Below are positions 2,979-63,134 of a DNA stretch of 64,000 nt, in pieces; position 1 is the first letter of the stretch; each line of letters opens with the position of its first letter. Origin of the DNA: Ciceribacter sp. T2.26MG-112.2 (lineage in GTDB: Bacteria > Pseudomonadota > Alphaproteobacteria > Rhizobiales > Rhizobiaceae); the NCBI RefSeq assembly GCF_900492205.1, contig NZ_UEYQ01000001.1, positions 124,001 through 188,000 of the forward strand, written 5' to 3'. Below the pieces are notes generated by a model. The model saw only the letters and a program-made list of their open reading frames with translations. It was not told the DNA's origin and ran no database searches. A program made the position numbers and the translations under genes.

Positions 2979-3653
2979 TTGAGCACCGCCCGACACACGG
3001 TCTATGACAAGCGTTATGCCGGCTTCCTGTTCGACATGGACGGAACGCTGCTGAATTCCATCGCCGCCGCCGAGCGGGTCTGGGCAAAATGGGCGGCGCG
3101 CCACGGGCTCGATGTCGAGGCCTTCCTGCCTACCATGCACGGCAAGCGCGGCATCGACACCATTCGCGGGCTAGCCCTGCCGGGCGTCGACGTCGAAGCC
3201 GAAGCGCTGGTCATCGAGCGCGGCGAGATCGAGGATGTCGAGGGCGTGGTGGCCCTGCCCGGCGCGATCGACTTCCTCAACGCGCTGCCGTCAGACCGCT
3301 GGTCGATCGTGACATCGGCGCCGGTTGCGCTCGCCCGCGCCCGGATCGAAGCCGCCGGCCTGCCGCAGCCGCCGAAGATCGTGACCGCCGAGGATGTCGT
3401 GATCGGCAAGCCCGATCCCGCCGGCTATCGGCTCGGCGCCCGGCATATCGGCGCAGACCCGGCCAGTTGTCTCGTATTCGAGGATGTTCTGGCAGGGGTG
3501 CTCGCAGCCGAGGCCGCAGGGTCTGACGTGATGGTGGTCACCGCCACCCATGGCCATCCCATGGAAACCCCGCACCCGACGATTGCGTCTTACGAGGGCC
3601 TAGTCGTGCGCGTCGATTCGACGGGCCATATGCAGATCGTCCGGGCGACCTGA
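2979..3653 (+). CDS. HAD-superfamily (subclass IA) phosphatase, sugar-phosphatase-like
   Basis: This 224-residue HAD hydrolase has motif I FLFDMDGTLLNS (nucleophile Asp19, general acid Asp21), motif II VTSAP, motif III K in VIGKPDP, and motif IV VFEDVLAGVLAA. A small alpha-helical cap fits between about 30 and 95. Family members of this layout hydrolyse sugar phosphates or phosphoglycolate-like metabolites; the substrate cannot be read from sequence. The start is TTG 2979, with AGAGGA upstream, because no ATG occurs before motif I. It stands alone between a terminator and the convergent prfC. Confidence 0.8.
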   Translation: MSTARHTVYDKRYAGFLFDMDGTLLNSIAAAERVWAKWAARHGLDVEAFLPTMHGKRGIDTIRGLALPGVDVEAEALVIERGEIEDVEGVVALPGAIDFLNALPSDRWSIVTSAPVALARARIEAAGLPQPPKIVTAEDVVIGKPDPAGYRLGARHIGADPASCLVFEDVLAGVLAAEAAGSDVMVVTATHGHPMETPHPTIASYEGLVVRVDSTGHMQIVRAT

Positions 3654-3748
3654 CCGGCCTTCATCTGCGGCAAAGCCCGGGTTCACGCCCGGGCGTCATG
3701 CTGCGGTATATCGAGGGCGGGCAGGACGCCGCCCTGCGGAGCGGACGA

Positions 3749-5332
3749 TCACGCCGCCTTGATGGCGTGATATTCCTTGATCGCGGCCATCTTGATCGCC
3801 GGATAACGCTCGCTTTCATAGCGCAGCGAAAAACTGTCCTGCGCCATGAAGACGGGGTCGCCGTCGAGGTCGCGGCAGATGTCGCCGCGGCGCGCCGTCA
3901 TGAACTTTTCCAGTTCGCCCGGCTGGTCGGCGGAGATCCAGCGGCAGACCGAGAAGCGCGACATTTCGAACGAGACCGGCAGGCCGTATTCGCCCTGCAG
4001 GCGCTCCTTCAACACATCGAGCTGCAGCGCACCGACGACGCCGACGATGGCCGGCGAGCCGTCTTCCGGCGAAAACAGCTGCACGACGCCCTCTTCCGCC
4101 ATCTGCTGGAGGGCTTCCTTCAGCTTCTTCGCCTTCATCGCATCCTCGAGACGAACGCGACGCAGGATTTCCGGCGAGAAGTTCGGCACGCCCTGGAAGA
4201 CCAGCGGCTCGCCTTCGGTCAGCGTATCGCCGATGCGCAGCGTCCCATGGTTCGGAATGCCCACCACGTCGCCGGCAAAGGCGGTATCGGCAAGCTGGCG
4301 CTGCGAGGCGAAGAAGAACTGCGGCGCGGTCAGCCCGATCTGCTTGCCGGTGCGCGCGAGCCTGACCTTCATGCCGCGCTCCAGCTTGCCCGAGCAGATG
4401 CGGGCAAAGGCGATGCGGTCGCGATGGTTCGGGTCCATGTTGGCCTGGATCTTGAAGACGAAGGCCGTCATCTTGTCTTCCGCCGCATGGACGGTGCGGA
4501 TGTCGGCCACCTGGTCGCGCGGCGGCGGTGCGATTTCGCCCAGCGCATTGATCAGGTCGCGCACGCCGAAGTTCTTCAGCGCCGAGCCGAAGAAGACCGG
4601 GGTCATGTGGCCTTCGAGGAAGGCCTGGCGATCGAAGGGACGGCAGGCCTCCTGGGCCAGTTCCAGCTCTTCGATGAAGGCGGTGCGTTCGTTTTCCGGC
4701 AACTGCTCGGCGACATTGGCCGGGCTGTTGACCGGCAGGCCCTCGACCTGCTTGTCGGAGCCGCGGAAGGTGTTTTCCACCAGATTGTAGGAGCCGCAGA
4801 AGGACTTCGAGCGGCCGACCGGCCAGGTCACCGGCGCGGTGTCGAGCGCCAGCTTCTCTTCCACCTCATCGAGGATCTCGAAGGGGTCGCGGCTTTCGCG
4901 GTCCATCTTGTTGATGAAGGTGATGATCGGGATGTCGCGCATGCGGCAGACCTCGAACAGCTTCAGCGTCCGCGGCTCGATACCCTTGGCGGCATCGATG
5001 ACCATGACGGCCGCGTCGACCGCCGTCAGCGTGCGATAGGTGTCGTCGGCGAAGTCTTCGTGGCCGGGCGTATCGAGAATGTTGAAGACATTGCCGTCAT
5101 ATTCGAAGGTCATCACCGAGGTGACGACCGAAATGCCGCGCTCGCGCTCGATCTTCATCCAGTCCGAACGGGTCTGGATGCGATCCTTCTTCGCCTTGAC
5201 CTCACCAGCGAGCTGGATGGCGCCACCGAACAGCAGCAGCTTTTCGGTGAGCGTCGTCTTGCCGGCGTCCGGGTGGGCAATAATAGCGAAGGTGCGGCGA
5301 CGGGAGACCGCCTCTGCAAGCGTTTCGGCCAT
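3749..5332 (-). CDS. prfC: Peptide chain release factor 3 (RF3)
   Basis: This 527-residue translational GTPase recycles RF1/RF2 from the ribosome after peptide release. The G motifs are clear: G1 AHPDAGKTT (19-27), the G2 region ERGISVVTSV, G3 DTPGHEDF, and G4 NKMD. These are followed by the RF3-type domain II and a C-terminal region with VVGALQLDVLKERL. Length equals the family norm (about 527-529). An AAAAGGAA ribosome site precedes the ATG. It is divergent from dut, with a shared intergenic region of under 100 bases. Confidence 0.97.
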   Translation of the reverse strand: MAETLAEAVSRRRTFAIIAHPDAGKTTLTEKLLLFGGAIQLAGEVKAKKDRIQTRSDWMKIERERGISVVTSVMTFEYDGNVFNILDTPGHEDFADDTYRTLTAVDAAVMVIDAAKGIEPRTLKLFEVCRMRDIPIITFINKMDRESRDPFEILDEVEEKLALDTAPVTWPVGRSKSFCGSYNLVENTFRGSDKQVEGLPVNSPANVAEQLPENERTAFIEELELAQEACRPFDRQAFLEGHMTPVFFGSALKNFGVRDLINALGEIAPPPRDQVADIRTVHAAEDKMTAFVFKIQANMDPNHRDRIAFARICSGKLERGMKVRLARTGKQIGLTAPQFFFASQRQLADTAFAGDVVGIPNHGTLRIGDTLTEGEPLVFQGVPNFSPEILRRVRLEDAMKAKKLKEALQQMAEEGVVQLFSPEDGSPAIVGVVGALQLDVLKERLQGEYGLPVSFEMSRFSVCRWISADQPGELEKFMTARRGDICRDLDGDPVFMAQDSFSLRYESERYPAIKMAAIKEYHAIKAA

Positions 5333-5427
5333 GAAGTGAAATTCCTTTTGTTGGCCGGTTATCTAGCGAGTCGAGGTCGAATATGCAATTGGGAAGCGGA
5401 ATGCCCCCGCAAGGAAGGATGACCGTC

Positions 5428-5892
5428 ATGCGCGATGTTCTCGGCCCCATGCTCAACCTCGTTCGCCTGCCGCACGGGCGCGACATGGCCCTGCCGGCCT
5501 ATGAGACCGCGGGCGCCGCCGGCATGGATCTGAGGGCCGCCGTCGCGGAAGGCGAGCCGCTTGTTCTTTCGCCGGGCGATCGAACGCTGGTGCCGACCGG
5601 CTTCGTCTTCGAGATCCCGGAAGGCTTCGAGGCGCAGATCCGTCCCCGCTCCGGCCTCGCCTTCAAGAACGGCGTCACCTGCCTCAACACGCCGGGCACG
5701 ATCGACAGCGACTACCGCGGCGAGGTGAAGGTGCTGCTGGTCAATCTCGGGCACGAGCCGTTCGAGATCAGCCGCGGCATGCGGATCGCCCAGATGGTGA
5801 TCGCGCCGGTCGTGCAGGCGCGCGTTTCGGAAATCTCCGACGCTTCAGAAACAACGCGCGGCGCCGGCGGCTTCGGTTCGACCGGGGTCTGA
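5428..5892 (+). CDS. dut: Deoxyuridine 5'-triphosphate nucleotidohydrolase (dUTPase)
   Basis: This trimeric dUTPase converts dUTP to dUMP plus PPi, keeping uracil out of DNA. The five family motifs are present: [33 protein letters not shown] (uracil pocket and catalytic Asp), [10 protein letters not shown], and the C-terminal P-loop-like [10 protein letters not shown]. The start at ATG 5428 gives 154 residues, the usual length, and has AAGGAAGG about 9 bases upstream. The frame is also open from ATG 5383, but that start lacks such a site. Confidence 0.96.
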
Positions 5893-6000
5893 GACGGTCC
5901 TCCCCAGGCGGCGCGCCTCGGTACATTCTCAGGAGCCGTTCCCGCCCCGCGGCCGAATTCTAGTGGCGGCCGAGCGACGAACGCCGCCCATTGATTGCGG

Positions 6001-6633
6001 CTAGCGCTGCGCTTCGGTCGCCATGCGGACGGCCAACCCGGCGAGAACCGTGCCCATCAGCCAGCGCTGCACCACCATCCAGAAGGGCCGGCCGGCAAGA
6101 AAGAGCGCGATCGAACCGGCCATCAACGCGATCATCGCGTTGACGGTGACGCTGATGGCGATTTGGCTGGCGCCGAGCACCACGGATTGCAGGAGCACGC
6201 TGCCCAGCGCCGGATCGACGAATTGCGGCAGCAGCGACAGATAGAGGACCGCGGCCTTGGGGTTCAAAAGGTTGGTGACCAGCCCCATCATGAACAGCCT
6301 TCGCGGGCTGTCCTTCGGCAGGTCGCGGACCTGGAAGGGCGAACGCCCGCCCGGCCGCACCGCCTGCCAGGCAAGCCAGAGCAGATAGGCGGCGCCGGCG
6401 AATTTCAGGGCGTCATAGGCAAAGGGCACGGCCATGACCAGCACGGTGATGCCGAGCGCCGACATCAGCATGTAGAAGACGAAGCCGAGCGCCACGCCGC
6501 CGAGCGAGACGAGCCCGGCGGCCGGGCCCTGGCAGATGGAGCGCGACACCAGATAGATCATGTTCGGCCCGGGCGTCAGCACCATGCCGAGGCAGATGAA
6601 GGCGAAGGCAATCAGGGACGAAGAAGAAGGCAT
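6001..6633 (-). CDS. LysE/RhtB-family amino-acid exporter
   Basis: This inner-membrane protein of about 210 residues has roughly six hydrophobic segments. The LysE/RhtB signature TPGPNMIYLVSRSICQG falls after the first helix, and GLVTNLLNPKAAVLYLSLLPQFV is the typical NPK motif of the middle helix. Members export amino acids or homoserine lactones; the substrate is not predictable. The start at 6633 (MPSSSS) places the first helix at the N-terminus as in relatives. A second LysE paralogue starts 131 bases away in the opposite direction. Confidence 0.85.
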   Translation of the reverse strand: MPSSSSLIAFAFICLGMVLTPGPNMIYLVSRSICQGPAAGLVSLGGVALGFVFYMLMSALGITVLVMAVPFAYDALKFAGAAYLLWLAWQAVRPGGRSPFQVRDLPKDSPRRLFMMGLVTNLLNPKAAVLYLSLLPQFVDPALGSVLLQSVVLGASQIAISVTVNAMIALMAGSIALFLAGRPFWMVVQRWLMGTVLAGLAVRMATEAQR

Positions 6634-6764
6634 GGGGCGAGGCCTCGGCTGGCGTTTCTCGCCCACGACCTAAGCCAGGCCCTCGGCCCGCCGCAACGGC
6701 GATCTTGTCACCATTGCAAGTTCGGTTGCGCGGCGCTAGCAATGCGTCATCCACGGAGGCCCCC

Positions 6765-7379
6765 ATGACACCCACAACGCTCCTCGCCTATAGCGGCGCG
6801 CTTTTCGTTGCCGCAGCCATTCCCGGCCCCGGCATGACGGCGATCGTGGCGCGAGCGCTCGGGTCCGGATTTCGCCCGACCTTCTTCATGGGGCTCGGCC
6901 TGATCCTCGGCGATCTCTGCTATCTGACCGCCGTGATCCTCGGCCTGGCACTGGTGGCGCAGACCTTCACCACGCCCTTCCTGATCATCAAATATCTGGG
7001 CGCGCTCTATCTTGTCTACATCGCCTGGAAGCTCTGGACGACAGGCCTTATCGCGCAGGATATCCAGGCAAAGCGCTCCAATAGTGTCGGCCTCTCCTTC
7101 CTTTCCGGCCTGCTCGTCACGCTCGGAAACCCGAAGACCATGCTGTTCTACGTGGCCCTCGTGCCCACCCTGATCCCGCTCGAAGCCATCGGCCCGAGCG
7201 ATTACGCCGCCCTCGTCGGCGTCACCTTCGTGGTGCTGATCGCCGTGCTCATTCCCTATATCCTGCTCGCCTCGCAGGCCCGGACGCTCCTAAAAAAGCC
7301 CAACTCCCTCAAGGCGCTGAACCGCTCGGCGGCCAGCATCTTGGCGGGCACCGCCGCCTATATCGCCGCGCGCGCCTGA
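6765..7379 (+). CDS. LysE-family translocator
   Basis: This is a 204-residue membrane exporter of the LysE type. It begins MTPTTLLAYSGALFVAAAIPGPGMTAIVARALG and carries GLLVTLGNPKTMLFYVALVPTLIP, both diagnostic motifs. Five to six transmembrane segments are evident. A GGAGG site lies just before ATG 6765. It is divergent from the neighbouring LysE gene, but the two are only distantly alike, so a recent duplication is unlikely. The exported compound is unknown. Confidence 0.85.
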   Translation: MTPTTLLAYSGALFVAAAIPGPGMTAIVARALGSGFRPTFFMGLGLILGDLCYLTAVILGLALVAQTFTTPFLIIKYLGALYLVYIAWKLWTTGLIAQDIQAKRSNSVGLSFLSGLLVTLGNPKTMLFYVALVPTLIPLEAIGPSDYAALVGVTFVVLIAVLIPYILLASQARTLLKKPNSLKALNRSAASILAGTAAYIAARA

Positions 7380-11604: not shown

Positions 11605-12105
11605 TCAGCCGAAAATGCGCTTGGCGGTCGGCGACCGCAAGGCATTGCGAATGCGGTAGAGCATGGCCAGCGGTTCAGGGAAAGGCCTGCGGACAAAGGC
11701 GATCTTGCGGACATAGTCGTCGACGCGCCAGGTCGCCCAGGTGCCGCCGCGGAAATAGGCGATGTCGCCGACCTTCAGCAGCCGCTCGGACCCATCCTCC
11801 GCCGTCACATGGACCTCGCCCTCCTGGATGACCACGGTTTCGTCCCAGCCGAAATACCAGCGGAACTCACCTGCCGTGCAGTCCCAGACCGCCGTCGAGC
11901 TCGCCTCGTCGGCGCTCGACGAATGGTCGCCGACGCGGGCGAGCGGCGTGCCGCGCAGGATCCATTCGGGATTGATGGGTGCCGGCTTCAGCGCCAGATG
12001 GCTGCTATGGGCGGCCACCAGCGGCGGCATTTCCTCGTTGCGAAAGGTCCTTGGTACAGCAAGCAGCGTGCCGGCCATGCCGACGAGCATGAGTTTGAAA
12101 GCCAT
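11605..12105 (-). CDS. Cupin-domain protein with hydrophobic N-terminus
   Basis: This 166-residue protein has an N-terminal hydrophobic segment (MAFKLMLVGMAGTLLAVP) that may be a signal peptide or anchor. A DUF861/cupin_3 type barrel follows: WYFGWDETVVIQEGEVHVTAEDG and KVGDIAYFRGGTWATWRVDD. That barrel is the shape of ureidoglycine aminohydrolase-type cupins. In those proteins metal ligands sit in the WDETVVIQEGEV segment; here the usual histidines are sparse, so catalysis is uncertain. No partner is evident. The cupin fold is likely; the function is unknown. Confidence 0.7.
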   Translation of the reverse strand: MAFKLMLVGMAGTLLAVPRTFRNEEMPPLVAAHSSHLALKPAPINPEWILRGTPLARVGDHSSSADEASSTAVWDCTAGEFRWYFGWDETVVIQEGEVHVTAEDGSERLLKVGDIAYFRGGTWATWRVDDYVRKIAFVRRPFPEPLAMLYRIRNALRSPTAKRIFG

Positions 12106-12226
12106 GTCCGTTCCCAGATTAGATCATCTGCACGGAAAGATAGCATTGGGGAGTTACGTTTCGCTTTTCCCGATCGTTCAAATTGTAACGATCGGCCTTG
12201 CCCTCCAACAGGCCCGCGAGGGGGCC

Positions 12227-13342
12227 TCAGGCGAAACTCGCCTCACGTGCGTACGAGCGGACCGCGCCGCCTTCTACAGGCGAACCCGGCCTTTCGATGC
12301 GCCGTCCCGTCTCCTTGGCGAAGAAGTGGATGCGCTCGGGCGCGACGGTCAATTGCAGTTCCTCGGTGATCTCGGCTTCCACCGGCACGACGGCCGTCAG
12401 TGCCTGCGAAGACAGATGCCCGTGCACCAGCCGGTGCGCTCCGAGTTCCTCGACATAGTCGACCTTGAAGGGCAGGCGCTGGTCACCCTCGCCGGCCAGC
12501 GTCAGGTCTTCGGCACGCACGCCGACAGTGACCGAACCCGTCGTGCCTGGCTGAGCGCCGAAGGCCATCGACACGTCGCCGATCACCAGCCGGTCGCCCT
12601 CGATCGCGCCATCCAGCAAATTCATCGCCGGCGCGCCGATGAAGCTCGCGACGAAGGTGGAGGCCGGACGATGGTAGACCTCGAGCGGCGTGCCGATCTG
12701 CTCGATCGTCCCGCCGTTCAGCACCACCAGCCGGTCGGCCAGCGTCATCGCTTCGAGCTGGTCGTGGGTCACGTAGATCGCCGTGGTCGCCAGCCGCCGC
12801 TGCAGCTTGCGGATCTCGCCGCGCATGGTGACGCGCAGCTTGGCGTCGAGGTTCGACAGCGGCTCGTCGAACAGGAAGACCGCCGGCTTGCGTACGATGG
12901 CGCGGCCCATGGCGACGCGCTGGCGCTGGCCGCCGGACAGCGCCCTGGGCTTGCGCTTCAGATAGGGCTCGATCTCCAGCATGCGGGCCGCTTCCGTGAC
13001 GCGCGCCTCGATCTCCGCCTTCGGCGTCTTGCGGTTCCTAAGGCCGTAGGCGAGGTTGTCGTAGACGCTCATATGCGGATAGAGCGCATAGTTCTGGAAC
13101 ACCATGGCGATGTCGCGCTCGGCTGGTTCGACATTGTTGACGACGCGCCCGCCAATGCTGACCGTGCCTTGCGATATGGCCTCCAGCCCCGCCACCATGC
13201 GCAGCAAGGTCGACTTGCCACAGCCCGAAGGGCCAACCAGCACGATGAATTCGCCGTCCTCGATGGCGATGTCGATGGCTTTGACCGCGTGCACGCCGCC
13301 GTCGTAGATCTTCGAGACCTGGTCGATCAGAATGGACGCCAT
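12227..13342 (-). CDS. ugpC: sn-Glycerol-3-phosphate ABC transporter, ATP-binding protein UgpC
   Basis: This 371-residue ABC ATPase belongs to the CUT1/MalK subfamily. Walker A GPSGCGKS, the Q-loop [12 protein letters not shown], signature [14 protein letters not shown], Walker [17 protein letters not shown] and the switch THDQLEAM are all present. A C-terminal TOBE-like region follows ([20 protein letters not shown]). It energises uptake of glycerol-3-phosphate or glycerophosphodiesters through UgpA/UgpE. It is the last gene of the ugpB-A-E-C operon, 13 bases after ugpE. Confidence 0.94.
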
Positions 13343-13355
13343 GGGTTTACCTTTC

Positions 13356-14213
13356 TCACTTGTCGCTTTCGGTCAGGCCCTTGATGAACCAGCTCTGGAA
13401 GATCACCACGACGACGACGGGCGGCAGCATGGCGAGCACCGCCATGGCGAAAGCCTCGTTGTAGTCGGGGATCTGCGAGCCGACCCAGACCTGCAGGATC
13501 TGCTTGATGCCGCGCATCAGGGTGTAGAAGCTCTCGTCCGTGGTCATCAGCATGGGCCAGAGATACTGGTTCCAGCCATAGACGAACATGATGATGAAGA
13601 CCGCCGCGATCATCGTGCGCGACAGCGGCACGAGCACGTCGATGAAGAACTTCACCGGGCCCGCGCCGTCGATGCGGGCGGCCTCCAGCAGTTCGTCCGG
13701 CACCGACTTGAAGAACTGCCGGAAGAAGAAGGTACCGGTCGCCGAGGCCAACAGCGGCAGGATCAGGCCGACATGGCTGTTCAACAGGCCGAGCTCGCTC
13801 ATCACCTTGTAGGACGGCATGATGCGCACCTCGAGGGGCAGCAGCAGCGTGGTGAAGATCAGCCAGAAGGCGAGCGTGGCGAAGCGGAAACGGAAATAGA
13901 CGATCGCATAGGCGGCCAGCATCGACAGCACGATCTTGCCGATGGCAAAGCCGAGGCCGAGGATCAGCGAGTTCACCGCCATGGTCATGCCCGTGACTTC
14001 GCCGGTAAATCCGCCCTTGCGGAAGAGGACCTTGCCGTAGGTCTCCTCCAGGTGTCCGCCGATCGACAGCATGAGGCCGTTCGAGTGGATTTCGGCCGCG
14101 GTATGGGTCGAGGTGGTGAACGCCACCACCAGCGGCCCCAGCATCAGGATGACGCCGGCGATCAGGATGAGGTGGTCGAAGAACTTGGTGCGATACATCA
14201 ATCCGTCCCTCAA
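13356..14213 (-). CDS. ugpE: sn-Glycerol-3-phosphate ABC transporter permease UgpE
   Basis: This 285-residue inner-membrane permease has six predicted helices. The EAA loop [24 protein letters not shown] contacts the ATPase. The N-terminus ([28 protein letters not shown]) and the [22 protein letters not shown] segment are characteristic of UgpE. It overlaps ugpA by 4 bases (ATGA), indicating coupled translation of the two permease halves. Confidence 0.94.
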
Positions 14214-58927: not shown

Positions 58928-61354
58928 TCAGGCGCGCAGGCTGCCGCCGGTGGTCTTTTCGACATTACCGACGATCTTCTTCGTCAGCGCGTCGAAGTCC
59001 TCGTCGGTCAGGGTCTTTTCGACCGGCTGGATCAGCACCTCGATCGCCACCGACTTTCGGCCCTCGCCAACGGAAGCACCCTCGAAGATGTCGAAGACAT
59101 TGACGCCGGTGATCAGCTTGCGGTCGGCGCTGGCCGCCGCCTTGATGATCGCACCCGCCTCGACCGCCTTCTCGACCACGAAGGCGAAGTCGCGCTTCAC
59201 CATCTGGAAGGGCGAGAGGTCGAGCGCCGGCTTGGTGCGGGTCGCCTTCCGCTTCGGCTCCGGCACGACGTCGAGATAGACCTCGAAGCCGCACAAAGCG
59301 CCGGACACGTCGAGCGCTTCCAGCGTCTTCGGATGGAACTCGCCGAAATGGCCGATCACCACCTTCGGACCCATCTTGATCGTGCCGGAACGACCCGGAT
59401 GATACCAAGCAGGACCGCCCTGCTCGACCTGGACGTTCGACATCGGCAGGCCGCAGGCCTCCAGAACGGCGAGCGCATCGGCCTTGGCGTCATAGACGTC
59501 GACCGGCTTGCCGCCGCCCTTGGCCGCGTTCGACCACATGCGGCCGGCGCCTGCAAGCGAGGCCGTGCCGCGGCGGATGCCGCCGGCGATACGACGCTGG
59601 CCTTCCGGCCTGTCGTTCTCGTAGGTGCCCGAGACCTCGAAGATCGCCACGTCGCCGAAGCCGCGGTCGGCATTGCGCTGGGCAGCCGTTAAAAGGCCGG
59701 GCAGCAGCGATGGGCGCATGTCCGACATGTCGGCGGCGATCGGGTTGGCGAGCTTCAGCGCACGGCTTCCGCCGCCGAAAAGCTTTGCGTGCGCTTCCGG
59801 GATGAAGGACCAGGTGACGGCCTCCAGCATGCCACGCGAGGCCAGCGCCCGCTTGGCGGTGCGGGTACGGATCTGCAGGGGGGTGAGGATCTTGGCGTTG
59901 ACCGAACCAGTCGGCGCCAGCGGCTCGGGCTTGATCTTGTCGACGCCATGCACGCGCATGACCTCTTCCACCAGGTCGGCCTTGCCGTCGACATCCGGAC
60001 GCCAGGACGGAACGGCGACCGAGACCGTCTCGCCCTTGCCCGAGACCTCGAAGCCGAGGCCGGTCAGGATCTGGCGAGCCTCGTCATTGGAGACGGTGAG
60101 GCCGGTTAGCCGCTTTACTTCGGAAAAGGGGAAGTCGACGGTCTTGCGGTCGTAACCCTTGTAGCCGACGACCTTGGCCCTGGCCGCCGTACCGCCGCAC
60201 ATGGAGAGAACCAGTTCGGTGGTCCGCTCGAGGCCGGGCATCATGTATTCCGGGTCGACGCCGCGCTCGAAGCGATAGCGCGCATCCGTGATGATGCCGT
60301 GGCCGCGGCCGGTCTTGGCGATGTTGATCGGGTCCCACAGAGCCGATTCGATCAACACGTTGACCGTGTTCTCGTCGCAGCCCGAATGCTCGCCACCCAT
60401 GATGCCGCCGATCGATTCCGGGCCGTTGTCGTCGGCGATGATGACGTTGGCCGGATTGAGCTTGTAGGTGCGGGTATCGAGCGCCAGGATCTCCTCGCCC
60501 TCGCGGGCGCGGCGCACGGTGAGCACGCCCTTGACCTTGTCGGCGTCGAAGACGTGCATCGGCCGGCCCTGGTCGAAGGTCATGTAATTGGTGACGTCGA
60601 CCAGCGCCGAGATCGGGCGAAGACCGATCGCCAGCAGCCGCTGCTGCATCCAGCGCGGGCTCGGACCGTTCTTCACGCCGCGCACCAGGCGATAGGCAAA
60701 GCCCGGGCAGAGCTTCTCGTCGTCGAGCACGATCTTCACTTCGATCGGCGTTTCGCCCTCGGTCTTGAACTCGGGCGCCTTCGGCTGCTTGAGCTTGCCG
60801 AGGCCGGAGGCGGCGAGATCGCGGGCAATGCCGAAGACGCTCGTGCAGTCAGGACGGTTAGGCGTCAGGTTGATCTCGATGACCGGATCGTCGAGCCCGG
60901 CATAGGACGCGAACGACGCGCCGACCGGAGCGTCATCGGGAAGATCGATGATGCCGTCGTGGTTGTCCGACATGTTGAGCTCCTTTTCGGAGCACATCAT
61001 GCCGTGGCTTTCGACGCCGCGGATCTTGCCGACGGCGAGCGTCACGTCGATGCCCGGAACATAGGTGCCGGGACGGGCGAGCGCCCCGACCAGGCCGGCC
61101 CGCGCATTGGGGGCGCCACAGACGATCTGCACGGGCGAAGAGCCGTCACCGGCATCGACCGTCAGCACCTTCAGCCGGTCGGCTTCCGGATGTTTTTCGG
61201 CCGTCAGGATCTTGGCGATGACGAAGGGCTTGTAGGCCGCCTTGTCGTCGACGTCCTCGACCTCGAGGCCGATCGCGGTCAGCCGCTCGCAGATCTCGTC
61301 GAGCGTGGCGTCGGTTTCCAGGTGATCCTTCAGCCAGGAGAGTGTGAATTTCAT
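58928..61354 (-). CDS. pheT: Phenylalanyl-tRNA synthetase beta subunit
   Basis: This 808-residue subunit has an N-terminal tRNA-binding domain ([40 protein letters not shown]) and B1/B5 domains with the editing region ([34 protein letters not shown]). The C-terminal FDX-ACB anticodon-binding domain is [25 protein letters not shown]. With PheS it forms the alpha2beta2 enzyme charging tRNA-Phe. Its GGGGAGC ribosome site is encoded by the last codons of the intervening membrane gene, one base from that gene's stop. Confidence 0.97.
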
Positions 61355-61355
61355 G

Positions 61356-61919
61356 TTAGCTCCCCAAGACCAGGTTCAGTACAGTCTGCAAAATAAATGC
61401 GGCACCAAAAAATAAAAGCAGAGAAACCATAATATTGAATGTCATTCCAAATTTTCTATTCGTAATGAAAGCAACATTTTTTCCAATAACTTCACTGCAA
61501 ATCACAGATTCTATAACTGCGGCTCTCTTCTGGATATATACCACATCTATTACCACCAACTCACGCGGGGCAATGAACGGAAATCTAGTTACGAACTGAC
61601 CCTCTGGATTTACTAATTGCTCATAATTTCTTGCCGGAAATACTGAGAAATCGTCTGGCTTGAATGACATAACAAATTGAACATCATTCGCAGGCTTCCG
61701 CCCTGCGTTCTGCAGAAAATATTTCTCACAATATATTTCAGTTTTCTTATCATCCGCCTGAATGAAATGAATACTATTGTTCGATCGCCCCCAAATAAGT
61801 TTGACGCGTGCGCGGAACAACCAGAAAATCATGGCTCCGACTAGGGTGAAGATCAGTGATAGGATTTGACTGTGTACCGGCGACAGGATTTCCCAGAGTC
61901 GGGTGACAAGCTCTATCAT
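61356..61919 (-). CDS. AT-rich two-helix membrane protein inserted between pheS and pheT
   Basis: This 187-residue protein has an N-terminal helix ([17 protein letters not shown]), a soluble beta-rich domain (about 45-150) and a C-terminal helix ([21 protein letters not shown]). The domain includes [24 protein letters not shown] and [18 protein letters not shown]. Its start overlaps the pheS stop (ATGA) and its stop lies one base before the pheT ATG, so it sits inside the pheST operon. Base composition is foreign: 61441-61500 has 18 G/C of 60. No family is recognised. The central domain looks Ig-like; membrane topology suggests a cytoplasmic or periplasmic middle domain held between two helices. 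Confidence 0.75.
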
Positions 61920-63001
61920 AAACTCAATCCCCCAAACAGGGTCGGCACGTCGAGCGGGCGGAAACCGTAATGGCTCATCCAGCGCACATCGGCGTTGAAG
62001 AAGTCGCGCAGGTCCGGCATGCCGTACTTCAGCATGGCGATGCGGTCGAGGCCCATGCCCCAGGCAAAGCCCTGGTATTCGTCCGGATCGAGCCCGCCGG
62101 CGCGCAGGACGTTCGGATGAACCATGCCGCAGCCGAGGATCTCCATCCAGTCCGTGCCCTCGCCGAACTTGACGATCGGACCGGACGAGCGGTCGCATTG
62201 GATGTCGACCTCGAAGGACGGTTCGGTGAAGGGGAAGAAGGACGGGCGGAAGCGCATCACCACATTGTCGACCTCGAAGAAGGTCTTGCAAAACTCTTCA
62301 AGAATCCAGCGCAGGTGGCCGACATTGGCGGTCTTGTCGATCACCAGGCCCTCGACCTGGTGGAACATCGGCGAATGGGTGGCGTCACTGTCCTGGCGGT
62401 AGGTCTTGCCGGGAATGACAATGCGGATCGGCGGCTTCTGCGCTTCCATGGTGCGCACCTGCACCGGCGAGGTGTGGGTACGCAACACCTTGCGGTCGCC
62501 GTTGTCGTCGGGCTCCAGGAAAAAGGTATCGTGCATCTCGCGGGCCGGATGACCCTCGGGGAAGTTCAACGCGGTGAAATTGTAATAGTCGGTCTCGATG
62601 TCCGGACCCTCGGCGATCGAGAAGCCCATGTCGGCGAAGATCGCGGTGATCTCGTCGACGATCTGGCTGATCGGATGGATGCGGCCGCGCTCGGCCGGCG
62701 AGGAGCGGACGGGCAGCGAGACGTCGACCGTCTCGGCCTTCAGCCGCGCGGTGATGGCGGCGTCCTTCAGCTCGGTTTTGCGGGCGGTGATCTTTTCGGT
62801 GATTTCGTTCTTCAGTGCGTTGATCGCCGCACCGCGCGTCTGGCGTTCTTCCGGCGTCATCGAGCCCAGCGTCTTCAGGAGTTCGGAAATTGAACCCTTC
62901 TTGCCAAGCGCGGCGACGCGGACCGCCTCGATATCGGCTTCGTTGTCCGCCGCGGCGATGTCGGCGAGAAGCGCCGTTTTCAAACTGTCGAGATCGGACA
63001 T
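61916..63001 (-). CDS. pheS: Phenylalanyl-tRNA synthetase alpha subunit
   Basis: This 361-residue class II synthetase catalytic subunit has an N-terminal coiled coil ([43 protein letters not shown]). Motif 1 is [34 protein letters not shown], motif 2 [19 protein letters not shown], and motif 3 [17 protein letters not shown]. It starts at MSDLDSLKT (63001); the frame is open 19 codons further, across a terminator, and that part is unlikely to be translated. It overlaps the inserted membrane gene by 4 bases. Confidence 0.97.
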
Positions 63002-63058: not shown

Positions 63059-63095
63059 AATGAAAAACCCGCGCTAGCCCTGCCAGCGCGGGTTT
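63059..63095 (-). terminator. Terminator between rplT and pheS
   Basis: On the minus strand AAACCCGCGCT (63095-63085) pairs with AGCGCGGGTTT (63075-63065) around a 9-base loop and runs into TTTTTCATTTT. It closes the rpmI-rplT unit. The pheS start is only about 60 bases further on, so readthrough or attenuation could influence pheS. Confidence 0.85.
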
Positions 63096-63134
63096 CCCAA
63101 CAATTTCTTTTACAAAAGCTTGGGAAGCGCTGGC

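Follow-up and report, generated by a model that had tools for sequence, protein, structure and literature searches.

Cargo hotspots are known beside core genes and tRNAs. The nearest described system is the core defence hotspot cDHS1 of P. aeruginosa, which carries variable cargo between conserved core genes near pheS, pheT and rplT and is not obviously one mobile element (PMC10250203). Bordered by merR and a DUF4011 gene, cDHS1 is found past pheT and ihfA and is external to the operon; its median size is 26 kb and it contains many known defence systems. The locus described here is a gene located between pheS and pheT in a 64 kb stretch of DNA (hereafter the window). The slot that holds it resembles cDHS1 in having the same core flanks and different cargo in relatives (47 of 59 junctions filled), but differs in being inside the operon, in its size of 0.3-2.6 kb, and in holding co-directional genes with few PADLOC matches. 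A second described system, DhiTA (DUF4160/DUF2442) of Dickeya dadantii, is reported to be an experimentally tested toxin-antitoxin encoded by a bicistronic operon with its own tested promoter (PMC8198452). The same domain pair, in the same toxin-first order as given there, occurs at many sibling junctions; it is a counterpart of sibling cargo and not of the window gene. Cargo between pheS and pheT was not found described in the literature, for which coverage of subscription papers was thin.

A low-GC gene embedded between pheS and pheT

On the minus strand of the window the gene order is pheS, cargo ORF, pheT, and the insert is composed of this one ORF with no second gene inside. The corresponding features are:

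61916..63001, minus strand: pheS (PheRS α, Pfam), upstream flank of the slot; start taken at ATG 63001
61918-61916, minus strand: TGA stop codon of pheS, inside the same ATGA as the cargo start
61916..61919, minus strand: ATGA overlap of the cargo start codon and the pheS stop codon
61356..61919, minus strand: cargo gene, 187 aa, predicted helix / cytoplasmic β-sandwich / helix, of a family that its homologues mark as phage-associated; start codon ATG at 61919, stop codon TAA at 61358-61356
61815..61916, minus strand: N-terminal helix, predicted membrane segment 1, codons 2-35 (model; hydropathy peak at residues 19-37)
61500..61799, minus strand: predicted β-sandwich domain, codons 41-140 (model; N71, G73 and P95 invariant in 11 aligned members)
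61368..61445, minus strand: C-terminal helix, predicted membrane segment 2, codons 159-184 (model, hydropathy)
61360..61365, minus strand: GGGGAG, likely ribosome site of pheT, inside the last cargo codons TTG GGG AGC (sequence)
58928..61354, minus strand: pheT (PheRS β, Pfam), downstream flank of the slot

The size of the ORF, its low GC content, its ATGA overlap with pheS and the one-base gap that precedes pheT had all been reported in an earlier note made from the sequence alone, and were all confirmed at 61356-61919. The single base 61355 separates the cargo stop TAA from the pheT ATG (61354). GGGGAG (61365-61360) occurs five bases ahead of this ATG, in agreement with the proposal that the last cargo codons double as the pheT ribosome site; the ribosome-site match before pheT is of 4 bases at this junction. 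The GC content of the cargo ORF is 41.1% versus 62.3% for pheS and 65.6% for pheT, and the figure of 18 G/C in the 60 positions of 61441-61500 was reproduced. When the 64 kb were scanned in 564-nt intervals with a step of 50 bases, just six fell below 45% GC, every one over the cargo ORF. Judging from homologues that exist over its full length (see below), the ORF is a real gene.

Alignment to five relatives, four of which have an empty junction, is lost 4-7 bases short of the pheS stop and picks up again at the first base of pheT or the base preceding it, indicating that the spacer and the last pheS codons alone were replaced. No terminal repeats, inverted repeats or target duplication were found at the ends of the window insert, which is without transposase and does not qualify as a transposon or an IS.

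A simple scan of the minus strand detected no promoter-like site from the pheS start to the cargo start, one such site within the cargo ORF and, shortly before pheS, a strong hairpin resembling a terminator. Since no promoter-like site lies ahead of the cargo ORF while a terminator-like hairpin precedes pheS, the cargo ORF would depend on the pheST transcript, through which it is most likely expressed. Between rplT and pheS, a strong 18-bp hairpin followed by a T-rich stretch (window 63061-63099, minus strand) may split pheST transcription from that of rpmI-rplT or be an attenuator.

Predicted fold of the window protein

The soluble domain had been noted as having no recognisable family, and database searches agree: the best values for the window protein were 0.7 in Pfam, below the cut-off, 0.081 in PHROGs and 0.11 in NCBIfam, none of which gives a family, and no PADLOC-DB model, effector models included, matched up to E=10. 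PDB sequences searched with profile A7 gave no match up to E=1. The fold prediction that had been suggested as a check was run with AlphaFold2 on 9 sequences and yielded a helix at residues 2-35, eight strands across 41-140 forming a β-sandwich, and a helix at 159-184 (mean pLDDT 80); the same plan was obtained with pLDDT 85 when the Yersinia massiliensis homologue was placed first among the same sequences. In 11/11 members, K/R residues beside the helices number 3-6 on the domain side versus 0-2 on the other, an excess that suggests that the β-sandwich domain is probably on the cytoplasmic side of the membrane.

Among solved structures, carbohydrate-binding modules (E 2.6e-5, TM 0.32) and integrin Ig-like domains (Z 9.9, rmsd 3.2 over 108 residues) match the fold. 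These are generic β-sandwiches and carry no information on function. The best viral models found by Foldseek, a Microbacterium phage Min1 protein (A6N1W4, E 1.5e-4) and a protein of virus sp. ctah610 (A0A8S5R7S0, E 3.3e-7), are two-helix β-sandwiches like the window protein with TM-scores of 0.42-0.49, a likeness in predicted fold.

Homologues and their association with phages

With the window protein as query, no match was found in the 296 other genomes of the family, nor in the genome contig, viral contig and plasmid collections; two alphaproteobacterial members used as queries did not match in the viral contig collection either. The first homologue was found in the phage collection, in Yersinia phage vB_YenM_324 (tblastn E=5e-14, 24% identity over 93% of the query; the two rows for this phage are two records of one phage), where it is annotated as a hypothetical protein (OM095401.1, 28228-28809). 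Other members occur on a Pantoea plasmid carrying phage tail, repressor and integrase genes, on three IMG/VR contigs, and in 8 of 5426 E. coli genomes, two of which were inspected and both carry it in a P2-like prophage. Profile searches of three samples, which may overlap, gave 4 matching genomes among 346 others of the order, 1 among 384 of the class and 2 among 397 of the phylum. A second scan of genome contigs added Yersinia massiliensis, Enterobacteriaceae bacterium RIT714, Lelliottia sp. and Collimonas sp.

After merging near-identical copies (L005 with L013; L011 with L017 and L170), 17 distinct members were counted outside the window. For thirteen of them the setting is a phage record, viral contig, prophage or island with an integrase (L002, L003, L004, L005/L013, L006, L012, L173, L014, L015, L016, L017, L295 and L293). 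Pfam confirmed capsid (L015, and L176, which is the same contig as L295), terminase (L017), portal (L016) and integrase genes (L014, L173, L293) nearby, the remaining phage contexts being based on record annotation, viral collection membership or ORF reading; the alphaproteobacterial prophage members adjoin capsid, portal, terminase or integrase genes. The family of the window gene is, from these contexts, phage-associated. The other four members (L171, L172, L174, L294) have no readable phage gene in the stretch shown, which counts against a phage or defence reading, and the window copy itself is not in a phage, prophage or integrase-island context.

The vB_YenM_324 protein and the P2-like prophage copies of E. 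coli and Pantoea are homologous to the window protein over almost the full length and share its helix/β/helix plan. In these elements it is an accessory gene located where the tail genes end or next to the integrase, whereas the window gene, 24% identical to the vB_YenM_324 homologue at the protein level, is embedded between pheS and pheT. Several members have defence-like neighbours, namely an MqsA-type antitoxin with a ParA-type ATPase, a TIR-type gene, a PIN gene and an IrrE-type protease. Of nine member neighbours submitted to PADLOC, six had no match and a seventh weak helix-turn-helix matches alone; neighbours of two members matched, a ParA-type ATPase to the candidate system PDC-M28B (2.4e-31) and a TIR effector (3.6e-7).

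A variable cargo slot within the genus

Of 60 congeneric genomes, 59 yielded pheT, and the junction was read in each of these, that of the window among them. There are 12 empty junctions (12-23 nt) and 47 filled ones (282-2180 nt) with 24 ordered arrangements of co-directional cargo, so that the insertion hotspot suggested in the earlier note, with unrelated cargo at the same junction in relatives, is indeed observed: the pheS-pheT junction in this lineage is a variable cargo slot. The window gene is carried at this site by one genome alone. An orthologue that would mark it as an old resident was sought among the 296 other family genomes and the 59 congeneric junctions, and the only occurrence was the window's own, in keeping with the proposal that the gene is an insertion.

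The 47 inserts include DUF2442 (32), DUF4160 (19), BrnT (10), BrnA (10), exoribonuclease-like (7) and ASCH (6) genes, the small membrane proteins of the slot TM144 (4) and TM140 (3), HEPN with a partner (2), and further single cases among which is the window gene; Pfam names of cargo families are based on one representative each. The models used to map cargo were grown from Pfam-checked or single representatives and from plus-strand ORFs, so that a family present solely on the opposite strand would escape them. Recognised plus-strand cargo accounts for 84% of the inserted bases in the genus and 83% in the family, and each of the 199 domain matches recognised, 119 of them in the genus and 80 in the family, has the same orientation as pheS and pheT. 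Six sibling cargo proteins, chosen outside BrnT/BrnA and DUF4160/DUF2442, were also given to PADLOC: the exoribonuclease-like protein matched an effector (1.2e-10), one small membrane protein matched weakly (0.0037) and four had no match.

A toxin-antitoxin-type gene occurs in 38/47 inserts, as a two-gene pair in 26 and as a lone DUF2442 in 12. The idea of an addiction-type cargo is therefore supported for the slot. The window gene, at most a candidate for an addiction or defence role, has no partner and no PADLOC match and, as a single ORF with no adjacent co-directional pair, lacks the layout of a type II toxin-antitoxin. In the 12 junctions with a lone DUF2442 (370-399 nt; for instance L033, L040 and L061), this antitoxin-type gene lies by pheT without the DUF4160 toxin. 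In L050, L054, L106 and L167, the docked DUF4160 or BrnT gives split matches in two frames, as if broken, next to an intact partner.

Distribution of the slot beyond the genus

To look at other genera of the family, 121 genomes were searched and 119 matched; 88 loci from other genera were read, of which 85 have both genes. Forty of these have a gap of at most 131 nt and 45 a gap of 316-2623 nt, the cargo of the latter including GFA (18, identified by Pfam), DUF2442 (15), DUF4160 (13), ASCH (5) and BrnT/BrnA (4), with a toxin-antitoxin-type gene in 19/45. A search of 56 genomes for other families of the order gave 55 matches, from which the best-scoring 28 non-family loci were read: 23 have both genes, with 12 gaps of at most 124 nt and 11 of 405-1265 nt, and five have no pheS within 1.5 kb. 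For the rest of the class (104 searched, 102 matched), 28 of the best-scoring 29 loci read have both genes; in 20 the genes overlap by 4 nt, 26 gaps are of at most 19 nt, one is of 108 nt, and a single junction is filled (328 nt) with an unrelated ORF. Given the filled junctions of the order versus 1/28 elsewhere in the class, the open, filled pheS-pheT junction is, within this sample, a feature of the order, the two genes usually overlapping elsewhere in the class.

Two neighbouring intervals served as controls, both belonging to the pheST operon itself. Gaps larger than 250 nt were found between rpmI and rplT in 0/36 genomes of the genus and 0/58 of the family, between rplT and pheS in 10/37 and 11/58, and between pheS and pheT, in the same genomes, in 32/38 and 34/58. 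The rplT-pheS inserts of the 10/37 congeneric loci and of most of the 11/58 longer family gaps are of about 1 kb (mostly 0.9-1.2 kb; see L130, L155 and L127) and, by eye, seem to hold a single co-directional family (…WIKR… proteins) where intact, as opposed to a mixture of cargo, being decayed elsewhere. The glyQ-glyS pair was dropped as a two-subunit synthetase control because it is not a tight pair in these genomes: glyQ is absent within 1.5 kb upstream of glyS in 30/30 congeneric loci and, in 20 longer congeneric stretches (L271-L290), is present in 19 at about 2.3-8.1 kb from glyS, a spacing that makes the pair unusable. In these 19/20 stretches the interval holds variable gene content and may represent another variable region nested in a pair of synthetase genes. 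Strong differences from close relatives were also seen in L182 (oriented 3500-6985 and 12001-13750) upstream of rpmI and downstream of pheT, indicating that the wider pheST neighbourhood is variable too.

Connections of the cargo with pheS and pheT

An ATGA overlap joins the last recognised cargo gene to pheT in 25/47 inserts of the genus and 10/45 of other genera, and the pheS stop is within an ATGA in 6/47 and 10/45, respectively. Ahead of pheT, all 12 empty congeneric junctions match the ribosome site over at least 6 bases; a match of at least 4 bases is missing from 31/47 genus inserts versus 0/12 empties, with a weaker contrast in other genera (26/45 filled versus 9/40 short-gap junctions).

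The divergence profile of the flanks displays no clear import tract, and recombination in the flanks is for this reason something that we infer. In a tree made from the recombining flanks themselves (488 columns, 7/56 inner branches strongly supported), the empty or filled state needs at least 7 changes versus 8-12 in 200 shuffles; this is fewer than in any shuffle and suggests that the state is partly inherited. On the same tree, BrnT requires 10 changes for 10 carriers, and the strongly supported group of five that contains the window comprises two empty junctions, one lone DUF2442, one BrnT/BrnA and the window gene.

Possible origin and role of the window gene

We favour, with modest confidence, the view that a protein of phage origin, serving in exclusion or defence, has lodged in a cargo slot embedded in the operon. 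The slot between pheS and pheT takes small co-directional genes or pairs, many of toxin-antitoxin type or phage-borne and devoid of mobile-element machinery of their own; these would be expressed from the pheST transcript and would have arrived by recombination in the flanking genes. The occupant found here would be a phage-derived two-helix membrane protein whose β-sandwich domain, if the predicted membrane orientation is right, faces the cytoplasm. Prophage accessory genes often block or abort infection by other phages and, going by its company, the window protein most likely does the same. Because its start codon is shared with the pheS stop and the pheT ribosome site falls within its final codons, it would impose no cost on the operon and would be hard to lose without harm to pheT. 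Much of the other cargo, such as GFA (18/45 inserts in the family) and ASCH, is not defence-like, which counts against the defence part of this reading.

A second and more tentative possibility is that the junction acts as a translational hostage dock. Empty junctions have a strong pheT ribosome site that many filled ones have lost, and in the latter pheT translation appears to rely on ribosomes that re-initiate at the ATGA overlap once the last cargo gene has been read. If so, a nonsense or deletion mutation in the cargo would reduce an essential PheRS subunit, so that any docked module, whether toxin-antitoxin, phage-derived or other, would be kept without a need for toxicity. Homologous recombination within the conserved flanks, pheS and pheT, would let strains exchange modules, and the outcome would be a modular, promoterless, operon-embedded cargo array across the order.

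It is rather unlikely that the window protein is a lone toxic membrane effector, in which activation of the β-sandwich would lead the helices to damage the membrane in abortive infection, with the operon ensuring steady low expression. Its predicted two helices and cytoplasmic domain would suit this role, as would the members located beside an MqsA-like antitoxin with a ParA-type ATPase, an IrrE-like protease, a TIR-type gene or a PIN gene. However, no conserved partner sensor lies alongside in the loci read, the window copy has none, and the PADLOC effector models were unmatched. Equally doubtful is a neutral guest, landed from a prophage in a slot that accepts any co-directional gene leaving pheT translated. 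The cargo families are unrelated, some looking decayed (L050, L054, L106, L167), and the window copy is unique in the family, as expected for such a guest, yet the ORF, with 41% GC against a GC-rich genome, is intact, exactly replaces the spacer and has a ribosome site at its 3' end. Toxin-antitoxin genes moreover seem over-represented (38/47), by eye and as judged without a background rate.

Selection for co-expression with the translation machinery had also been proposed, and is unsupported here because the cargo comes from unrelated families without any obvious tie to PheRS; that the protein serves PheRS or translation is very improbable, its position alone favouring such a role while its homologues reside in phages far from pheST, none of the 296 other family genomes matches and the sibling cargo is unrelated. 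Finally, an assembly error or a spurious ORF, which the composition sharply unlike both flanks might evoke, is hardly credible in view of the full-length homologues, the exact junctions with pheS and pheT intact, and the dozens of independent assemblies with similarly occupied junctions.

The window gene adds an undescribed membrane-protein family common to P2-like phages and alphaproteobacterial prophages. The slot itself lies inside the two-gene operon of an essential enzyme and has been used many times across the order, which raises the question of whether cargo is kept for its usefulness or because the translation of an essential gene hangs on it. The slot, together with this possible dependence of pheT translation on the cargo, is the part worth following, and sister species with empty and filled junctions offer natural pairs to compare. 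Reading the pheS-pheT junction is also a simple route to small toxin-antitoxin, defence or phage-derived genes in Hyphomicrobiales-type genomes.
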